A DNA stretch of 6,266 nt, taken from assembly GCA_037439705.1 (NCBI GenBank), contig JBBIVP010000032.1:8238-14503 (forward strand), given 5' to 3'. Both the position numbers and the translations under genes were made by a program. The DNA is from JBBIVP01 sp037439705 [NCBI: bacterium] (GTDB lineage Bacteria > JBBIVP01). Of the stretch, positions 1 to 6,266 are shown piece by piece. A model generated the notes under the pieces. It ran no database searches. It saw nothing but the letters and a program-made list of their open reading frames with translations, and was not told where the DNA came from. The stretch's first letter is position 1; each line of letters opens with the position of its first letter.

Positions 1-1526
1 ATCGCTATCTCAAGTTTTTCATCCTCCGTATATCCGGGAAGCCTTATCACTTCCATCCTGTCAAGGAGAGGAGGAGAAATTGTATATATTACATTTGCTG
101 TTGTTATAAAAAGGACATCTGAAAGGTCATAATCAACTTCTATATAATGGTCATTGAAAACATGGTTCTGTTCAGGGTCAAGAACCTCAAGAAGTGCTGC
201 TGCGGGGTCACCCCTGTAATCAATCCCTACCTTGTCAATCTCATCCATCAAAAATACAGGATTTCTTGTTCCAGCCTTTCTCATCCCATGAATTATCTTG
301 CCTGGAAGGGCACCTATGTATGTCCGCCTGTGGCCCCTTATCTCAGCCTCGTCCCTTATTCCTCCGAGGGAAATGCGAACGAATTTCCTTCCTGTGGCTC
401 TTGCAATTGATTTGGCAAGGGATGTTTTTCCTGTTCCTGGGGGACCAACAAAACAGAGAACAGGAGCCTTCATTTCTTTCTTTGCAAGAGCCCTTACAGC
501 GAGGAATTCAAGAATTCTCTCCTTCGCCTTTTCAAGCCCGTAATGGTCCTCATCAAGAATTTTTTTTGCTTCCTTTATGTCAAGTTTTTCCTTTGTCCTC
601 TCCTTCCATGGAATGGAAAGAAGCCAGTCAATATAATTTCTTGAAACGGTTGCCTCAGCAGAAAGTGGAGACATCATCTTGAGTTTCTTTATCTCTCTTT
701 CAACCTTCTCCTTCACCTTTTTAGGCATTTTCTTCTTTTTGAGGAGCGCCTCAAATTCCTCAATCTCCTGTTTGTAATCATCCTTTTCACCAAGTTCTTT
801 CTGAATAGCCTTCATCTGTTCGGTGAGATAGTATTCCTTCTGCGCCCTCTCCATCTGTTTCTTTACCCTCTGTCTAATCCTTTCTTCTATCTCAAGAATT
901 TCAATTTCTCCCTGAAGGAGTTTTAATATCATCTCAAGCCTTTTGTTTACATTCTGTTCTTCAAGAACTGCCTGCCTGTCGGGGAATTTTAAAATCATCT
1001 GCGCCACAATCACATCTGATAATATAGAAGGATTGGATATGTTTGATATTGAAACAAGAGCCTCGGGCGGAATTTTTGGATTGACTTTTGTATATCTTTC
1101 AAAGCTTTGAATAACTGCCCTCATTAAAGCTTCTGTTTCCTGGTCGTTCGGATTTATCTCAACGAGTTCCTCTGCTTCCACCATTATATGTGTTTGCACA
1201 TCTACAATCCTGTGAGCATAACCCCTCTTTTTCCCTTCAACAAAAACCTTTAATGTTGTATCAGGAAGCCGCAGAACATTGGATATAGTAGCAAAAACTC
1301 CAACCCTGAAGAGGTCTTCGGGTTTGGGGTCATTTATCTGGGCATCTTTCTGAGCAAGCAAAAATAGATGTTTACCAAGTTTTAAAGATTCCTCAATAGA
1401 TTTTATTGACTTCTCCCTTCCGATGAGAAGAGGGAGGGTCATTCTCGGAAACACCACGACATCCCTTAATGGAATAAGTGGCAGAAAATACTTTTTTCCT
1501 GTTCCAATAAATTTTTTTTCTTCCAT
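1..1526 (-). CDS. lon: ATP-dependent Lon protease, N-terminal about 508 residues (cut by the left window edge)
   Basis: Lon is a cytosolic homohexameric AAA+ serine protease that unfolds and degrades misfolded and regulatory proteins. The frame is open without a stop from the ATG at 1526 to the edge. Visible in order: the substrate-binding N domain starting with the typical PLRDVVVFPRMTLPLLIG near residues 19-36; a charged helical linker around residues 195-260; the conserved SAEATVSRNYIDWLLSIPW entry to the AAA+ module near 302-320; Walker A GPPGTGKTS at 361-369; Walker B FLMDEID ending around 431 (D428, E429); sensor-1 Asn478; and the arginine finger in LLDRMEVI (R490). The alpha subdomain and the Ser-Lys catalytic dyad lie outside the window, so proteolytic competence cannot be checked. 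The start codon overlaps the clpX stop by one base (TGATG), and GAGGGAG lies just upstream, so translation is probably coupled to clpX. An A8 run spans codons 2-5. Confidence 0.97.
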   Translation of the reverse strand, partial: MEEKKFIGTGKKYFLPLIPLRDVVVFPRMTLPLLIGREKSIKSIEESLKLGKHLFLLAQKDAQINDPKPEDLFRVGVFATISNVLRLPDTTLKVFVEGKKRGYAHRIVDVQTHIMVEAEELVEINPNDQETEALMRAVIQSFERYTKVNPKIPPEALVSISNISNPSILSDVIVAQMILKFPDRQAVLEEQNVNKRLEMILKLLQGEIEILEIEERIRQRVKKQMERAQKEYYLTEQMKAIQKELGEKDDYKQEIEEFEALLKKKKMPKKVKEKVEREIKKLKMMSPLSAEATVSRNYIDWLLSIPWKERTKEKLDIKEAKKILDEDHYGLEKAKERILEFLAVRALAKKEMKAPVLCFVGPPGTGKTSLAKSIARATGRKFVRISLGGIRDEAEIRGHRRTYIGALPGKIIHGMRKAGTRNPVFLMDEIDKVGIDYRGDPAAALLEVLDPEQNHVFNDHYIEVDYDLSDVLFITTANVIYTISPPLLDRMEVIRLPGYTEDEKLEIA

Positions 1527-2782
1527 CAGGCTCCCTCACTTATCTTTCGCTCTCCCTTAATAAGAATCGGAGATGCAGAATTCAAAATCACATCTTCATT
1601 GATAATACATTCTTTTACCACTCCTCTCATATTGGGAATATCATACATTATATCAAGCATCTTCTCCTCAAAAATTGCACGAAGCCCTCTTGCTCCAGTT
1701 TTCTTTTTGATGGCAAGTTGGGCAATAGTTTGAAGTGCATCTTCCGTAAAAACGAGATTTATTCCCTCCAGTTCAAAAAGTTTTTGATATTGCTTCACAA
1801 TAGCATTTTTTGGCTTGGTAAGTATTTCTATAAGTGCGTTTACATCAAGTTCATCAAGAACCGCTATTACAGGAAGTCTTCCAACAAATTCCGGGATGAG
1901 CCCATACTTTATCAAATCCTCTGGTTCAACCATAGCATAAAGTTCTCCCTTTGTATATTTCTTTTCTCCTTTCACCTCTTTCCCGAACCCGATGCTTCCC
2001 GTGGAAACCCTCTTCTCCACAATTTTTTCAAGTCCTTCAAAAGCACCACCACATATAAACAGGATGTTGGTGGTATCCACAGGTATATAATCCTGATATG
2101 GATGTTTTCTCCCTCCCTTTGGAGGAACATGAGCAATCGTTCCTTCAAGAATTTTGAGAAGAGCCTGCTGAACCCCTTCTCCTGAAACATCCCTTGTTAT
2201 AGATGGACTATCGCTTTTACGAGATATCTTATCTATCTCGTCAATATATACTATTCCCTTCTGAGCCCTTTCTATATCAAAATCCGCATTCTGCAGAAGG
2301 TAAAGAAGAATGTTCTCCACATCTTCGCCCACATACCCTGCTTCCGTAAGGGTGGTCGCATCAGCTATTGCAAAAGGAACATTCAAAAACTTCGCGAGGG
2401 TTTGGGCGAGAAGGGTTTTCCCGGTACCCGATGGTCCTATGAGAAGGATGTTGCTCTTCTGAATCTCCACATCCTTTATTTGATTTACACTCTCAATCCT
2501 TTTGTAATGATTGTATACTGCAACTGACAAAATTTTCTTTGCCCTCTCCTGATTTATAACATATTGGTCCAAAAATTTTTTTATCTGGACTGGCTTCGGG
2601 ATTTTCTCGCTTATAACCTCACTTATTTCCTTTTCCCAATCTTCTAAAAGCAGGTCATTACACAGTTCCACGCACTCATCACATATATAAACCGATGGAC
2701 CCGCTATGAGTTTCTTAACTTCCTTCTGACTCTTACCGCAAAAAGAACATTTAACTAATTTATCATCAAGTTTTCTTACCAT
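1526..2782 (-). CDS. clpX: ClpX, ATP-dependent unfoldase subunit of the ClpXP protease
   Basis: ClpX is the hexameric AAA+ unfoldase that recognises tagged substrates and threads them into ClpP in the cytosol. Numbered from the ATG at 2782 (418 residues, close to E. coli's 424): an N-terminal zinc-binding domain with CSFC at 12-15 and CDEC at 34-37; Walker A GPSGTGKT at 116-123; pore loop GYVG at 149-152; Walker B VYIDEID at 178-184; the ClpX signature [19 protein letters not shown] around 196-214; the ClpP-docking IGFG loop at 264-267; and sensor-2 GARGLR at 363-368. All key elements are intact. A start 13 codons earlier (ATG at 2821) is possible, but it would overlap clpP by 56 nt, has only a weak GGA upstream, and adds residues that do not look like the family. 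The preferred start overlaps clpP by 17 nt and is preceded by AGGGAG. Together with ClpP directly upstream it forms the ClpXP machine. Confidence 0.97.
1531..1537 (-). promoter_or_regulatory. Ribosome binding site of lon, inside the clpX 3' end
   Basis: GAGGGAG lies within the last codons of clpX, about 4-7 nt before the lon ATG at 1526. It supports this start and fits reinitiation at the TGATG junction. Confidence 0.7.
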
Positions 2783-3404
2783 TGTTTTTCTTCTCCCTGT
2801 TTCTTGAAAAAAGGATTTCATCTATAATTCCATACTTTTTCGCCTCATCAGGTCTCATAAAATAATCCCTTTCAATGTCCTTTGCTATTTTTTCAAGTGT
2901 CTGACCTGTATGCTGTGCAAGAAGTTTTTTTACTTCTTCCTTTGTTTTTACGAATTCCCTTGCATGAATTTCTATGTCTGTTGCCTGTCCACCCACAGAG
3001 CCCCATGGTTGATGAATGAGAATTCTTGAATGGGGAAGGGCAAATCTCTTGCCTTTTTCTCCACCGGCAAGAAGTATCGCTGCCATACTTGCTGCTATCC
3101 CTACACATATAGTATAAACTGGCGATTTTATGTACTGCATTGTATCGTAAATTGCAAGACCCGATGCCACATCACCTCCGTATGAATTTATATAAAGGTA
3201 AATCTCCTTCTCTGGCTCCTCTGCCTCAAGATAGAGCAGTTGCGCTATAACAAGATTGGCTGACCACATATTTATTTCTCCACCTATGAATACAAAACTG
3301 TCTTTTAAACGCCTTGAATATATATCATAAGCCCTTTCCCCCCTGTGGGTCTGTTCTATAACAATTGGGACGAGCTGGGAAACCTGCTTTTCAATCCCTT
3401 TCAT
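2766..3404 (-). CDS. clpP: ClpP, ATP-dependent Clp protease proteolytic subunit
   Basis: ClpP is the tetradecameric serine peptidase chamber that degrades polypeptides delivered by ClpX or other Clp ATPases. From the ATG at 3404 the protein has 212 residues, a usual family length. The catalytic triad is complete: Ser106 in GIAASMAA, His131 in ILIHQP, and Asp180 in ERDYFM. The spacings (25 and 49 residues) match E. coli Ser97-His122-Asp171. The oxyanion-region motif INSYGGDV is present near 72-79. The C-terminus is a lysine-rich tail ([11 protein letters not shown]). A GTG at 3416 would add four residues, but GAGGT sits 5 nt before the ATG at 3404, so the ATG is chosen. The gene starts 14 nt inside the end of tig and its own end overlaps clpX by 17 nt, giving tight operon packing. 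A short N-terminal leader typical of autoprocessed ClpP may be present, but its cleavage site cannot be read with certainty. Confidence 0.97.
2793..2798 (-). promoter_or_regulatory. Ribosome binding site deciding the clpX start
   Basis: AGGGAG sits 10 nt before the ATG at 2782, inside the clpP 3' end. It favours the short form of ClpX over the upstream ATG at 2821. Confidence 0.6.
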
Positions 3405-4509
3405 ATTCAACCTCACACCTTTTTTCTAAGAATTCCATCGTTTTCTTTCTTATTATACCATCCTCAATCCTTCTTTTCAATTCACTATTTGCCGAGAGAA
3501 CCTCTACTCTTCTGTTCATTTCCTTCGCAAGTTTTTCAATTTCCTCCATAATTTCTTCATCTTCAGCTCCTATATTTTCCTTTTCCGCTATGGCATAAAG
3601 GAGTATCTCGCTTTTTACCCTTTCTTCAGCGATTTTCGGAAGTGCCGGGTCATCCTTTTTGAGCTCCTCCTTGAGCCTTCTGTATTCCTCAGAAACGAGG
3701 CTTTCCGGTGCCTCAAAGTTATTAACTTTAATCAAATGCTCAAATATAGCATTTTGAATCCGGTTTTTGATAACCCTTTCTCTGTCCATTTCCAGTTTTT
3801 CCCTTATTTTTTTCCTCACACTTGAGAAATCTGGTTCACCGAGAACCTTCGCAAATTCATCATTTGCCTCTGGCAGGATTAACTCGTAGATTTTTAAAAT
3901 TTTTAAAACCCTGTCCTTAAAGTTGACCACATCACCAATCCTCTTCCCATCAAACTCATCGCCTTTTTCAACAATGAGGAGAATACCCTTTTCTTTACCC
4001 TCAGGAGAACCTGCTTCCACCACATCCTTTTCTTTTACAGAATCCCTTTCTTCTACAGGTTTGAGTGTAGCATGTTTTCTTCTAAGGTCATCAATAACAG
4101 CCTCCACATCATTATCAGTGAGCGTCCAGTCTTTTATCTTGATTTTCATCTTTTCATAACCCAATGGTTCAATTCTAGGCAGAACATCAAATCTCACTGC
4201 GTAATTGAAACTGTCTTCTATAAACATCTCCTCAATGAGGGGCGGATGGATTGGATTCAAACCTTCTTTTTGAAGGATTTCAGAAAGCGTCCGCTTAATT
4301 GTGGTTTCCATCGCCTCCCTTTTAGCACTTTCTCCATAATAACTATGAATTATCTCTATGGGAGCCTTTCCCTTTCGGAATCCTTTTATATCGGCATTTC
4401 TTTGAACCTCTTTGAGTATTCTCTGAATTTCCCTTTCCACCATCTCCTTTTCAACTGATACCTTAACCTTTCTTTTTGTTTGAGAAATGTTCTCTACTTT
4501 GTATTCCAT
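3391..4509 (-). CDS. tig: Trigger factor with a shortened PPIase region
   Basis: Trigger factor is the ribosome-docked chaperone that meets nascent chains at the exit tunnel. The 372-residue protein is clearly shorter than the roughly 430 of E. coli. Residues 1-112 form the ribosome-binding domain, with the signature GFRKGKAP at 43-50. A helical linker follows (about 130-152, [17 protein letters not shown]). The middle segment, about 157-210, holds the position of the FKBP-type PPIase domain but is only about half the usual length, and I cannot find the FKBP core (the GxGxxIPGFE and GMxxGE-type motifs). The C-terminal substrate-cradle domain runs from [14 protein letters not shown] (about 212) to the end and is rich in charged helices. 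The start is supported by GAGGA 7 nt upstream. The 5' end is 12 nt from tRNA-Leu and the 3' end overlaps clpP by 14 nt. Chaperone function is expected to remain; prolyl isomerase activity is doubtful by inference. Confidence 0.93.
3410..3414 (-). promoter_or_regulatory. Ribosome binding site deciding the clpP start
   Basis: GAGGT lies 5 nt before the ATG at 3404, within the tig coding region. It favours this ATG over the in-frame GTG at 3416. Confidence 0.65.
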
Positions 4510-4516
4510 TTTTTTA

Positions 4517-4521
4517 TCCTC
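4517..4521 (-). promoter_or_regulatory. Ribosome binding site of tig, abutting the tRNA 3' end
   Basis: GAGGA begins at the first base after the tRNA discriminator nucleotide and lies 7 nt before the tig ATG at 4509. It is the complete translation signal in a 12-nt tRNA-mRNA junction. Confidence 0.75.
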
Positions 4522-4603
4522 TGCGAGGGAGGGGACTTGAACCCCTACCTCTTTCGAGACTGGATCCTAAGTCCAGCGCGTCTTCCTGTTCCGCCACCCT
4601 CGC
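4522..4603 (-). tRNA. tRNA-Leu (anticodon UAG)
   Basis: The 82-nt class II tRNA folds completely. The acceptor stem is GCGAGGG paired with CCCTCGC, followed by discriminator A at 4522. The D stem is GCG/CGC around a GAACAGGAAGA loop. The anticodon stem CTGGA/TCCAG carries the loop CTTAGGA, with UAG at 4569-4567. A long variable arm contains CTC-GAAA-GAG. The T stem AGGGG/CCCCT carries the loop TTCAAGT. A73 and the long variable arm are leucine identity features; UAG reads CUA and, with wobble, other CUN codons. There is no intron and no encoded CCA (the next bases are GAG), so the CCA must be added after RNase Z-type 3' processing. It lies 12 nt upstream of tig in the same direction. Confidence 0.98.
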
Positions 4604-4613
4604 TTATTATTTT

Positions 4614-4641
4614 ATTCTACACAGCCCAACAATTTTTACAA
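4614..4641 (-). promoter_or_regulatory. Putative sigma70-type promoter for tRNA-Leu and the tig-clpP-clpX-lon operon
   Basis: On the minus strand a -35-like TTGTAA (4641-4636) is separated by 16 nt from a -10-like TAGAAT (4619-4614). These match consensus at 4/6 and 5/6 positions. The predicted start site falls only a few bases before the tRNA 5' end at 4603, as expected for a tRNA promoter. No other promoter position is available between the tRNA and tig, so this site probably also serves the protease operon. Readthrough from archease remains possible because I see no terminator in the gap. This is a visual assignment in AT-rich DNA. Confidence 0.5.
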
Positions 4642-4664: not shown

Positions 4665-5081
4665 CTAAACATCAAAAACCACTTCTGTAACAAACTCATT
4701 TCCCTTCTTTTCAATTCTGAGATTATGATAGGTTGCCGCCTTTAATTCCGTCCTTAATTCAAAAAACTCCTCATTCAGAGGAGAAAAAAGAATTTCTGCC
4801 TCAAGACTTTTTTCATAAACCTTCAAATTTTCAATCTTCAATGGAACTTTTTTTAAGGAAACAAAATAAATGAGTTCGTTCAGAAACCTGACAAGAACCT
4901 CCTCCTTGTCAATCCCTTCTACAAAAATTTTTTTCCTCTCAAAATTTTTTATTTTTTTTCTCTTTCTTTTTACGACTATATCCAGAAATCCCTGGAAAGC
5001 CGAGGAAAAAAGGTCCTCTATCGTCTTCCCCTTTATTTCAATTTTTATGTCTGCCTTGTGGTCAATAATCCTGTAACCCAC
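4665..5081 (-). CDS. Archease family protein (predicted RtcB RNA-ligase activator)
   Basis: Archease is a small metal-binding protein that accelerates guanylylation and turnover of the RNA ligase RtcB, which joins tRNA exons in archaea and animals and is thought to act in RNA repair in bacteria. The 138-residue length is usual. The N-terminal motif IIDHKADIKIEIKG (5-18) matches the family's HxAD region, with His8 and Asp11. The central FLNELIYF (67-74) and the C-terminal LKAATYH (113-119) are also family-typical. The protein ends in VVFDV, placing an Asp at the penultimate position, the family's C-terminal metal-ligand region. Residues 38-51 are unusually lysine/arginine-rich. The start is GTG, sharing its first G with the TAG stop of the deacetylase gene. 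The Shine-Dalgarno sequence is weak (GGAAA), so translation is probably coupled to that gene. RtcB is not in the window. Confidence 0.9.
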   Translation of the reverse strand: MGYRIIDHKADIKIEIKGKTIEDLFSSAFQGFLDIVVKRKRKKIKNFERKKIFVEGIDKEEVLVRFLNELIYFVSLKKVPLKIENLKVYEKSLEAEILFSPLNEEFFELRTELKAATYHNLRIEKKGNEFVTEVVFDV

Positions 5082-6094
5082 TATATTTTCCAGAAGACCC
5101 TGAATGTGGAAAGAAGGGGCTCCCTCAAATAAGGGGGTATCATGCCTTTCATTGAAATTTTTTCCTCTCCTAAAAGAACCCTGAATACCTTTTCAACACT
5201 TTCCGTTAAACCCTTTATTGAATATCCGCCCTCAAGAAGGAGAAAAGGCCCTCCTGCACCTATCTCATCCGCAACTTCTACAATTATTTCCGCCATCCTT
5301 CCAAACCCTTCTGATGTAACCCTCATATCTCCAAGAGGGTCATCAATGAATGGGTCAAAGCCTGCTGAAACGAGAATTATATCCGGGCGATAATTTCTTA
5401 TTACAGGAGCGATTATCTCTTCAAAACATCCCACATAAACCATATCATCCGAACCACCTGGGAGTGGAATGTTCACGGTATATCCTCTTCCCTCTCCCTC
5501 ACCAACTTCTCTCAAAGAACCTGTTCCGGGATAATATGGCCATCTGTGAGTGGAAATGTAAAGGACATCACTTCTCGTCCAGAAAGCCCACTGTGTTCCA
5601 TTTCCATGATGTAAATCCCAGTCAATTATTGCAACCCTTTCCATTCCATTTCTTATGCAGAATTCAGCAACAATGGCTATATTATTGAAAAAACAGAATC
5701 CCATTGCTCTGTCTGATTCAGCATGGTGTCCCGGTGGTCTTATAAGGGCAAACCCTCTTTTTATGTTTCCCTTTATAAATTCCTCCATCATGTTCAGAGA
5801 ACTTCCTACAGCAAAAAGGGCTGTCTGAAATGAATCGGCTGAGGTTGATGTATCAGTATCAAGGTAAACGCTTCTGCCATCTGTACCTTTTATCCGGTTA
5901 AAGTGGAATTTCGTATGAATTAAAAGAATTTCCTCCTCTTCTGCCTTCCTCAAAGGAATGGATTTAAGTTTTGAAATCAATCCTTTTTCCTTTAGCATCT
6001 CATTAAGAGCCCTCACCCTTTCAGGACTTTCAGGATGCCCGTAAGAGGGAAGATGATTCTCAAAAATTTTATCTGCTACTACACCTACGCTCAT
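5081..6094 (-). CDS. Histone deacetylase superfamily protein (class II HDAC / acetylpolyamine amidohydrolase-like)
   Basis: The protein belongs to the zinc-dependent arginase/deacetylase fold that removes acyl groups from lysine side chains, acetylpolyamines or related small molecules. Numbered from the ATG at 6094 (337 residues): HPESPERVRAL at 20-30; RPPGHHAE with the catalytic His pair at 123-124; GFCFFNN at 132-138; the zinc site from IDWDLHHGNGTQ (Asp160, His162) and AGFDPF (Asp247); and LEGGYS with the catalytic Tyr291. Every expected active-site residue is present. HRWPYYPGTG near 183-192 resembles bacterial class II enzymes. No signal peptide or membrane segment is visible, so it should be cytosolic. 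The true substrate cannot be told from sequence. A TTG at 6118 would add eight residues but has no ribosome binding site, whereas AGGAGAG precedes the ATG. The gene ends in TAG overlapping the archease GTG. Confidence 0.93.
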   Translation of the reverse strand: MSVGVVADKIFENHLPSYGHPESPERVRALNEMLKEKGLISKLKSIPLRKAEEEEILLIHTKFHFNRIKGTDGRSVYLDTDTSTSADSFQTALFAVGSSLNMMEEFIKGNIKRGFALIRPPGHHAESDRAMGFCFFNNIAIVAEFCIRNGMERVAIIDWDLHHGNGTQWAFWTRSDVLYISTHRWPYYPGTGSLREVGEGEGRGYTVNIPLPGGSDDMVYVGCFEEIIAPVIRNYRPDIILVSAGFDPFIDDPLGDMRVTSEGFGRMAEIIVEVADEIGAGGPFLLLEGGYSIKGLTESVEKVFRVLLGEEKISMKGMIPPYLREPLLSTFRVFWKI

Positions 6095-6101
6095 TTTTTT
6101 A

Positions 6102-6266
6102 TTATCTCTCCTGTTCAAAAAATTTCAACAAAAAACAAATTCTATATTCACACAAAATTTTTATAACTTCCTTTACATCATTGCAAGGCTGGTTCTTTTT
6201 ATTTTGTAGACACACATAGACATTGTTACCAGGGGAAAGGGATAAAATTGGATGAAAAGGTTTTTT
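6102..6266 (-). CDS. Possible C-terminal end of an unrecognised upstream gene (cut by the right window edge)
   Basis: Reading the minus strand from the window edge, one frame stays open for 54 codons and ends at TAA (6104-6102), 7 nt before the deacetylase ATG. The predicted tail includes SLSPGNNVYVCLQNKK and ends in LLKFFEQER; it has four cysteines and many lysines. The deacetylase Shine-Dalgarno sequence lies within its last codons, as is common between genes of one operon. I do not recognise the family. The stretch is AT-rich and short, and uses TTG and TGT codons more than its neighbours, so a chance open frame over an intergenic region remains quite possible. Confidence 0.35.
   Translation of the reverse strand, partial: KKPFHPILSLSPGNNVYVCLQNKKNQPCNDVKEVIKILCEYRICFLLKFFEQER
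6106..6112 (-). promoter_or_regulatory. Ribosome binding site deciding the deacetylase start
   Basis: AGGAGAG lies 11 nt before the ATG at 6094. The spacing is slightly long but the match is strong. It lies downstream of the alternative TTG at 6118, so it cannot serve that start. Confidence 0.6.

Follow-up and report, generated by a model that had tools for sequence, protein, structure and literature searches.

Gene organisation of the locus

The window, by which is meant the whole 6,266-nucleotide stretch of DNA analysed here, carries on its minus strand a compact series of genes in the order histone-deacetylase-like gene, archease, tRNA-Leu(UAG), tig, clpP, clpX and lon, with 61 nt between archease and the tRNA and 12 nt between the tRNA and tig (Table 1). 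The products of tig, clpP, clpX and lon each score above the cut-off of the model concerned, PRK00277 and PRK05342 being NCBIfam models. For clpP the ATG at 3404 is the preferred start, with a GTG at 3416 as the alternative, and for clpX the ATG at 2782 is preferred in a reading frame that is open from an ATG at 2821. With these likelier starts clpP overlaps tig by 14 nt, clpX overlaps clpP by 17 nt and lon overlaps clpX by 1 nt, so that the stretches of 12 nt and 61 nt are, besides the tRNA itself, the only non-coding sequence between archease and lon.

The trigger factor encoded in the window is short, at 372 aa against 415-512 aa in 16 aligned relatives. Pfam gives no match to a peptidyl-prolyl isomerase domain in this protein at E 0.001, and the same is true of the longer trigger factor of L012, a Deltaproteobacteria-labelled MAG. 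Directly upstream of the tRNA lie the archease gene and a gene of the histone-deacetylase fold, which overlap by one base. Archease is the partner of the RNA ligase RtcB in other organisms.

ARAGORN and Rfam identify the same single tRNA, the latter through an RF00005 match at 4603-4522 of the minus strand (57.3 bits, E 9.9e-11), and the cloverleaf drawn out and compared with the window sequence has an acceptor stem of seven closed pairs. These results confirm the initial annotation of this DNA in ending the tRNA at discriminator A4522 without an encoded CCA, and its description of the junction, GAGGA followed by 7 nt to the tig ATG and 12 nt in all, is exact. Within GAGGATAAAAAA, which is both tRNA trailer and tig leader, the Shine-Dalgarno sequence GAGG starts immediately 3' of the discriminator.

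Table 1. Positions of the genes and sequence features of the window.
Feature	Coordinates	Strand	Details
lon	3..1526	minus	Truncated by window end; TIGR00763, 615 bits (cut-off 608)
clpX	1526..2782	minus	PRK05342, 660 bits (cut-off 359)
clpP	2766..3404	minus	PRK00277, 310 bits (cut-off 249); PF00574
tig, trigger factor	3391..4509	minus	372 aa; TIGR00115, 208 bits (cut-off 180); Trigger_N and Trigger_C
Promoter-like site TTGAAA-17-TATAAT	3452..3480	minus	11/12 matches, second hexamer preceded by TG; within the 3' end of tig, upstream of clpP
Trailer/leader GAGGATAAAAAA	4510..4521	minus	12 nt, between A4522 and the tig ATG at 4509
tRNA-Leu, anticodon UAG	4522..4603	minus	ARAGORN and Rfam RF00005; discriminator A4522; no encoded CCA
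Promoter-like site TTGTAA-16-TAGAAT	4614..4641	minus	9/12 matches; RNA start would be near 4607
Archease	4665..5081	minus	PF01951
Histone-deacetylase-fold gene	5081..6118	minus	

Recurrence of the tRNA-tig pair

Among the matches listed, the ClpX closest to that of the window is 70% identical, and nearer ones may exist. Among 31 relatives of G001, Lon is at most 63% identical where the match is nearly full length, and up to 73% where it covers short pieces. A 52-row tree built on ClpX, Lon and ClpP places L012 beside the window, on a long branch. The comparisons made here thus rest on distant relatives, and the compared genomes come from the phyla of those relatives, outside the window's own group. 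They comprise genomes of five phyla together with 80 ClpX loci, some of which recur in the phylum samples, and in each case the nearest same-strand tRNA upstream of tig was recorded. Phylum names were deduced from the organisms given among the ClpX matches: G003, the nearest sampled phylum, is that of L012, G179 that of Thiomonas, G180 that of a Firmicutes MAG (Bacillota), G002 that of L062 and G177 that of L080. Genomes without a tig match number 5/148, 1/60, 3/61 and 3/30 in the phylum samples, and a partial or weak tig led to the exclusion of 5 of the 144 matched genomes of G003 and 1 of the 58 of G180. Ten of the 80 ClpX loci have no recognisable tig, and two of the other 70 lack the tig N-terminus. 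Scans of viral contigs, which returned 18 loci for Lon, five for ClpX and none for the deacetylase, yielded nothing of use.

A tRNA-Leu(UAG) lies no more than 300 nt upstream of tig in 104/139 genomes of G003, 39/59 of G179, 9/57 of G180 and both genomes of G002, where some loci counted as absences have an upstream sequence shorter than 300 nt (3/139 in G003, 2/57 in G180). The same arrangement occurs at 34 of the 70 ClpX loci with a recognised tig, and at none of 28 loci (27 genomes) in G177. The recurrence of this pair in three sampled phyla argues that its adjacency is more than chance. Comparison of the junction in relatives had been proposed in the initial annotation, which had also held that relatives with the two genes apart would refute its reading. 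This refuting condition applies in part, as 32/139 genomes of G003 have no same-strand tRNA within at least 300 nt of sequence upstream of tig.

The distance from the encoded tRNA end to tig ranges from 13 to 276 nt in G003 (median 58.5 nt, with 40/104 pairs at 40 nt or less and eight at 20 nt or less), 21-242 nt in G179 and 81-298 nt in G180, tig starts having been set by profile position, which may make single gap lengths wrong. At 12 nt, the gap of the window is the smallest among all tRNA-Leu(UAG)-tig pairs measured. CCA is encoded in most of the tig-linked tRNA-Leu(UAG) genes of the sampled phyla (92/104 in G003, 39/39 in G179, 9/9 in G180 and 2/2 in G002). Short CCA-less pairs are nonetheless found elsewhere, at L292, where a GTG follows after 15 nt, and at L295 and L298, with 26 nt. 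When the tRNA-Leu of the window was queried against the L012 genome, a single full-length match was obtained, which is the tig-linked copy.

In 25 of the 57 genomes of G180 the slot ahead of tig is occupied by tRNA-Gly(GCC) (e.g., L015 and L016; loci among L187-L216 and L383-L409). By contrast, in E. coli K-12 the gene upstream of tig is bolA, and the 8 kb examined there contain no annotated tRNA. Searches of an open-access library, judged by titles and abstract openings, turned up no paper on a tRNA adjoining tig that is kept across phyla.

Promoters, terminators and probable co-transcription

The promoter scan used a sigma-70 consensus, which may not suit the lineage of the window. Over the whole window it finds 15 promoter-like sites where 13.7 are expected, which is the chance level, so that the 9/12 site upstream of the tRNA proves little by itself. 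No site of at least 9/12 falls inside the tRNA or the 12-nt gap. A terminator in the gap is ruled out by its length of 12 nt and its lack of a U-run.

Pairs with a gap of 40 nt or less (n=45, the window included) were compared with pairs whose gap exceeds 80 nt. Expected numbers come from shuffled sequences, in which dinucleotides were kept where a path was found and single bases otherwise; the shuffles for the tig/clpP site, for the region ahead of clpP in relatives and for terminators by group keep dinucleotides. Among the tight pairs, 19/45 have a promoter-like site within 75 nt upstream of the tRNA (5.2 expected), none has one in the tRNA and gap (1.0 expected, a difference too small to weigh alone), none has a terminator-like site in the gap (0.2 expected), and an SD-like word precedes the tig start in 35/45. 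Among the wide pairs, a promoter-like site lies upstream of the tRNA in 18/68 (4.3 expected) and in the tRNA and gap in 14/68 (9.5 expected). Since the upstream sites are enriched in tight and wide pairs alike, they mark the promoter of the tRNA and do not by themselves indicate coupling. A modest surplus of promoter-like sites near tig is seen just where the gap is wide.

Terminator-like sites are frequent in wide gaps. They occur in 4/42 gaps of 41-80 nt (0.5 expected), 10/35 of 81-120 nt (1.5 expected) and 8/33 of 121-300 nt (3.4 expected). By group, they are present in 7/104 gaps of G003 against 3.0 expected and in 11/39 of G179 against 1.5; in G180 they are found in 18 of the 25 tRNA-Gly(GCC) pairs (1.3 expected) and four of the nine tRNA-Leu pairs (1.0 expected). 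Terminators probably uncouple tig from the tRNA in some of the lineages, and read-through should mostly be possible in G003.

In the window, tRNA-Leu and tig are likely to be co-transcribed, because 12 nt is too short for a terminator or a promoter and because tight pairs have promoter-like sites upstream of the tRNA. The tRNA-mRNA precursor put forward in the initial annotation is thereby supported by inference, the pattern of the tight pairs agreeing with it. With a tRNA and a protein gene on one strand and neither a terminator nor a separate promoter between them, the locus has the make-up of a mixed operon of the tufB kind.

A different explanation is that the adjacency reflects compaction or an old neighbourhood, the tRNA being expressed separately and tig, or at least clpP-clpX-lon, having its own promoter in the tRNA or in tig. 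Several of the comparative results are in keeping with this: wide gaps often hold terminator-like sites, above all at 81-120 nt, as do the tRNA-Gly(GCC) pairs of G180; the tRNA and gap of wide pairs show some excess of promoter-like sites; and the pair is missing from 32/139 genomes of G003 in which at least 300 nt of upstream sequence is present. In the window itself, the 11/12 site inside tig is the best sigma-70-like site, and its score is equalled on the minus strand by ~5% of 300 shuffled sequences and by 13 of 1000 versions of tig with shuffled codons. This site may be a second, internal promoter for clpP-clpX-lon. It would, however, serve those genes and not tig, and the region upstream of clpP is only mildly enriched in 76 relatives, with sites of at least 10/12 in five (1.5 expected) and of at least 9/12 in 11 (6.3 expected). 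As the tight pairs also have no promoter-like site in the tRNA and gap, separate expression of tRNA and operon appears quite improbable.

The proposed 3' cut and its candidate enzyme

The reading preferred here, to which we attach moderate confidence, is that tRNA-Leu(UAG) heads a tig-clpP-clpX-lon transcription unit, that the precursor is cut at the discriminator by an enzyme of the RNase Z kind, and that the use of the arrangement is co-expression. RNA polymerase would start just upstream of tRNA-Leu and, given the lack of a terminator, the lack of room for a promoter and the tight pairs of relatives, would make a single tRNA-mRNA precursor running from tRNA-Leu through tig-clpP-clpX-lon. 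RNase P would trim the 5' side of tRNA-Leu, an endonuclease of the RNase Z kind would cut the precursor at the discriminator, and nucleotidyltransferase would add CCA to the tRNA. The 3' product would begin at GAGG, with tig translated from a leader of ~12 nt. The main use would probably be the economical co-expression of translation and protein-quality genes, rather than the sensing of tRNA processing.

A cut after A4522 would leave the entire GAGG on the mRNA. Its pairing with the anti-Shine-Dalgarno sequence, the latter taken from general knowledge, amounts to -5.6 kcal/mol without the discriminator and -5.8 kcal/mol with it, and release by RNase Z of an mRNA that starts with its Shine-Dalgarno sequence is plausible. 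In the folding model the first three bases of this sequence are unpaired with a probability of ~0.85-0.92 and the next two with ~0.55, in the precursor with its tRNA as well as in the cut mRNA. Being equally unpaired before and after the cut, the Shine-Dalgarno sequence does not need cutting to be exposed, and a switch in which the tRNA masks it until the cut was rejected on the values for the first three bases. A CCUC-GCA-GAGG hairpin can also be drawn at 4518-4528 of the minus strand, in which the 3' strand of the acceptor could pair with the Shine-Dalgarno sequence if the acceptor stem failed.

RNase Z of Bacillus subtilis is reported to process CCA-less precursors, with a U no more than 2 nt from the discriminator stimulating it ~200-fold (PMC10100781). 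Like its substrates, the tRNA of the window has no encoded CCA, and its trailer does not begin with C, let alone CC, A4522 being followed by GAG. Unlike the U-stimulated substrates described in that report (PMC10100781), its trailer begins GAGGAU, with the first U at +6, and serves as an mRNA leader. Among the 12 CCA-less pairs of G003, a U lies within 2 nt in eight by script and in nine after L236 was read by eye. The B. subtilis enzyme has in addition been reported, in one assay with an archaeal CCA-less precursor, to make half of its cuts 5-6 nt past the discriminator (PMC7479834); a cut at this distance in the window would remove the Shine-Dalgarno sequence. The first U at +6, taken together with such downstream cutting, makes it less probable that the cut is exact and efficient.

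These considerations lend weight to another course of events, in which the precursor is cut elsewhere, within the A-rich trailer or tig, or is trimmed by 3' exonucleases after a downstream cut, so that each precursor gives either the tRNA or the tig mRNA, with uncut RNA as the main template for translation of tig. It would account for a trailer without the nearby U that activates the B. subtilis enzyme (PMC10100781), for the ability of that enzyme to cut 5-6 nt downstream (PMC7479834), and for a Shine-Dalgarno sequence that is exposed in the folding model without any cut; most relatives, moreover, encode CCA and many of them still have short gaps (40/104 at 40 nt or less in G003). Set against this, a folded tRNA so close to the start codon, at 12 nt, may get in the way of the 30S subunit, and a cut downstream of the Shine-Dalgarno sequence would waste every tig message. 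On these grounds we judge the alternative course to be rather unlikely, and retain cutting at the discriminator as the preferred reading.

An encoded CCA, as in most relatives, is usually a sign of a different 3' pathway. Thermotoga-type enzymes, in the reports concerned, cut after CCA (PMC3161902, PMC7479834), and through such a cut the excision idea could extend to CCA-encoding relatives. An enzyme of the Thermotoga kind was not identified in the relatives examined.

Homologues of the RNase Z family were sought with TIGR02651, which finds them in 20/20 relatives and in none above its cut-off, against 9/14 control genomes above it. The match is unbroken across model positions 150-200 in 4/12 CCA-less genomes (G089, G103, G124 and G162) and in 0/8 CCA-encoding ones. 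One of the four was scanned further, and this protein, L414 of G089, passes the cut-off of the RNase Z model NF002558 (PRK02126). In the short RNase Z-like homologues (248-271 aa, among L416-L425; ten aligned) the match is in two pieces, with model region 150-200 missing. Five of the short homologues were scanned against further models, and four are best matched by RNase Z models and L419 by a cyclic-nucleotide phosphodiesterase model, none over the cut-off; when L418 is compared with solved structures, RNase Z comes after two putative hydrolases and one further entry. In Propionibacterium acnes, RNA mapping is described as placing cut sites near the 3' ends of most tRNAs in a genome that, according to the report, encodes no obvious RNase Z (PMC3848588), and another nuclease is thus possible in the window too.

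It is possible, if doubtful, that in many bacteria of a broad group a single cut both matures the 3' end of tRNA-Leu(UAG) and forms the 5' end of the trigger factor-Clp-Lon mRNA. The message would then have a 5'-monophosphate and a leader of ~12-30 nt that begins at or near the Shine-Dalgarno sequence, with the window as the tightest case. If true, this would mean that bacteria use tRNA excision to start an mRNA in a widely kept gene pair, as mitochondria do. The 3' maturation of a tRNA and the fate of the chaperone-protease message would then depend on one shared cut, and one endonuclease would serve both translation supply and protein quality control.

Relation to known systems

The tufB operon of Salmonella, thrU-tyrU-glyT-thrT-tufB, unites a promoter region, tRNA genes and a gene of the protein-synthesis machinery in one operon (PMC6134099). 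Like it, the window has a tRNA followed by a protein gene; unlike it, with its four tRNAs and an elongation factor, the window has one tRNA and a chaperone-protease operon. The tufB operon is the same in E. coli, and its gap from tRNA to ORF is wider than 12 nt. The tRNA-tig locus is best classed as a probable tRNA-mRNA operon of an already known kind (compare tufB), extreme in its spacing.

In human mitochondria, the neighbouring mRNAs are described as being freed when RNase P and RNase Z excise the tRNAs (PMC8437803). In the window the tRNA lies within 12 nt of an ORF, and a processing cut that made the mRNA 5' end would be punctuation of this kind. The window differs in presenting one tRNA-ORF junction and in that the mRNA would keep a 12-nt Shine-Dalgarno leader after the putative cut. 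The tRNA-Leu(UAG)-tig pairs of other bacteria share with the window the same tRNA, ORF, order and strand, and differ from it in that CCA is mostly encoded, gaps span 13-298 nt and some contain terminator-like sites.

Possible regulation and message stability

The initial annotation had further suggested that tRNA-processing capacity might set chaperone and protease output. Put more fully, tRNA-processing capacity would govern tig and the proteases, linking translation load and protein quality control in a feedback. A gap of 12 nt with the Shine-Dalgarno sequence right at the tRNA end fits such a scheme, and RNase Z can indeed be a regulated step, as in Streptococcus oligofermentans, where peroxide is reported to cause degradation of RNase Z and so to hinder tRNA maturation, all 50 tRNA genes being CCA-less (PMC8549757). 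However, the Shine-Dalgarno sequence is as accessible before the cut as after it in the folding model, relatives vary widely in gap length and CCA status, and part of the wide-gap relatives have terminator-like sites that would break the link. The 11/12 site inside tig could, in addition, free clpP-clpX-lon from such control. The suggestion is not supported by these results, and feedback of this kind seems very unlikely; simple co-expression is the use that we continue to favour.

Two properties of the proposed 5' end may bear on the stability of the message. A 5'-monophosphate end is reported to favour decay by RNase E or RNase J, and a strong Shine-Dalgarno sequence in the leader to be able to stabilise mRNA in bacteria without RNase E (PMC3997798). 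Either effect could apply to the tig mRNA, in which GAGG is a short Shine-Dalgarno sequence.
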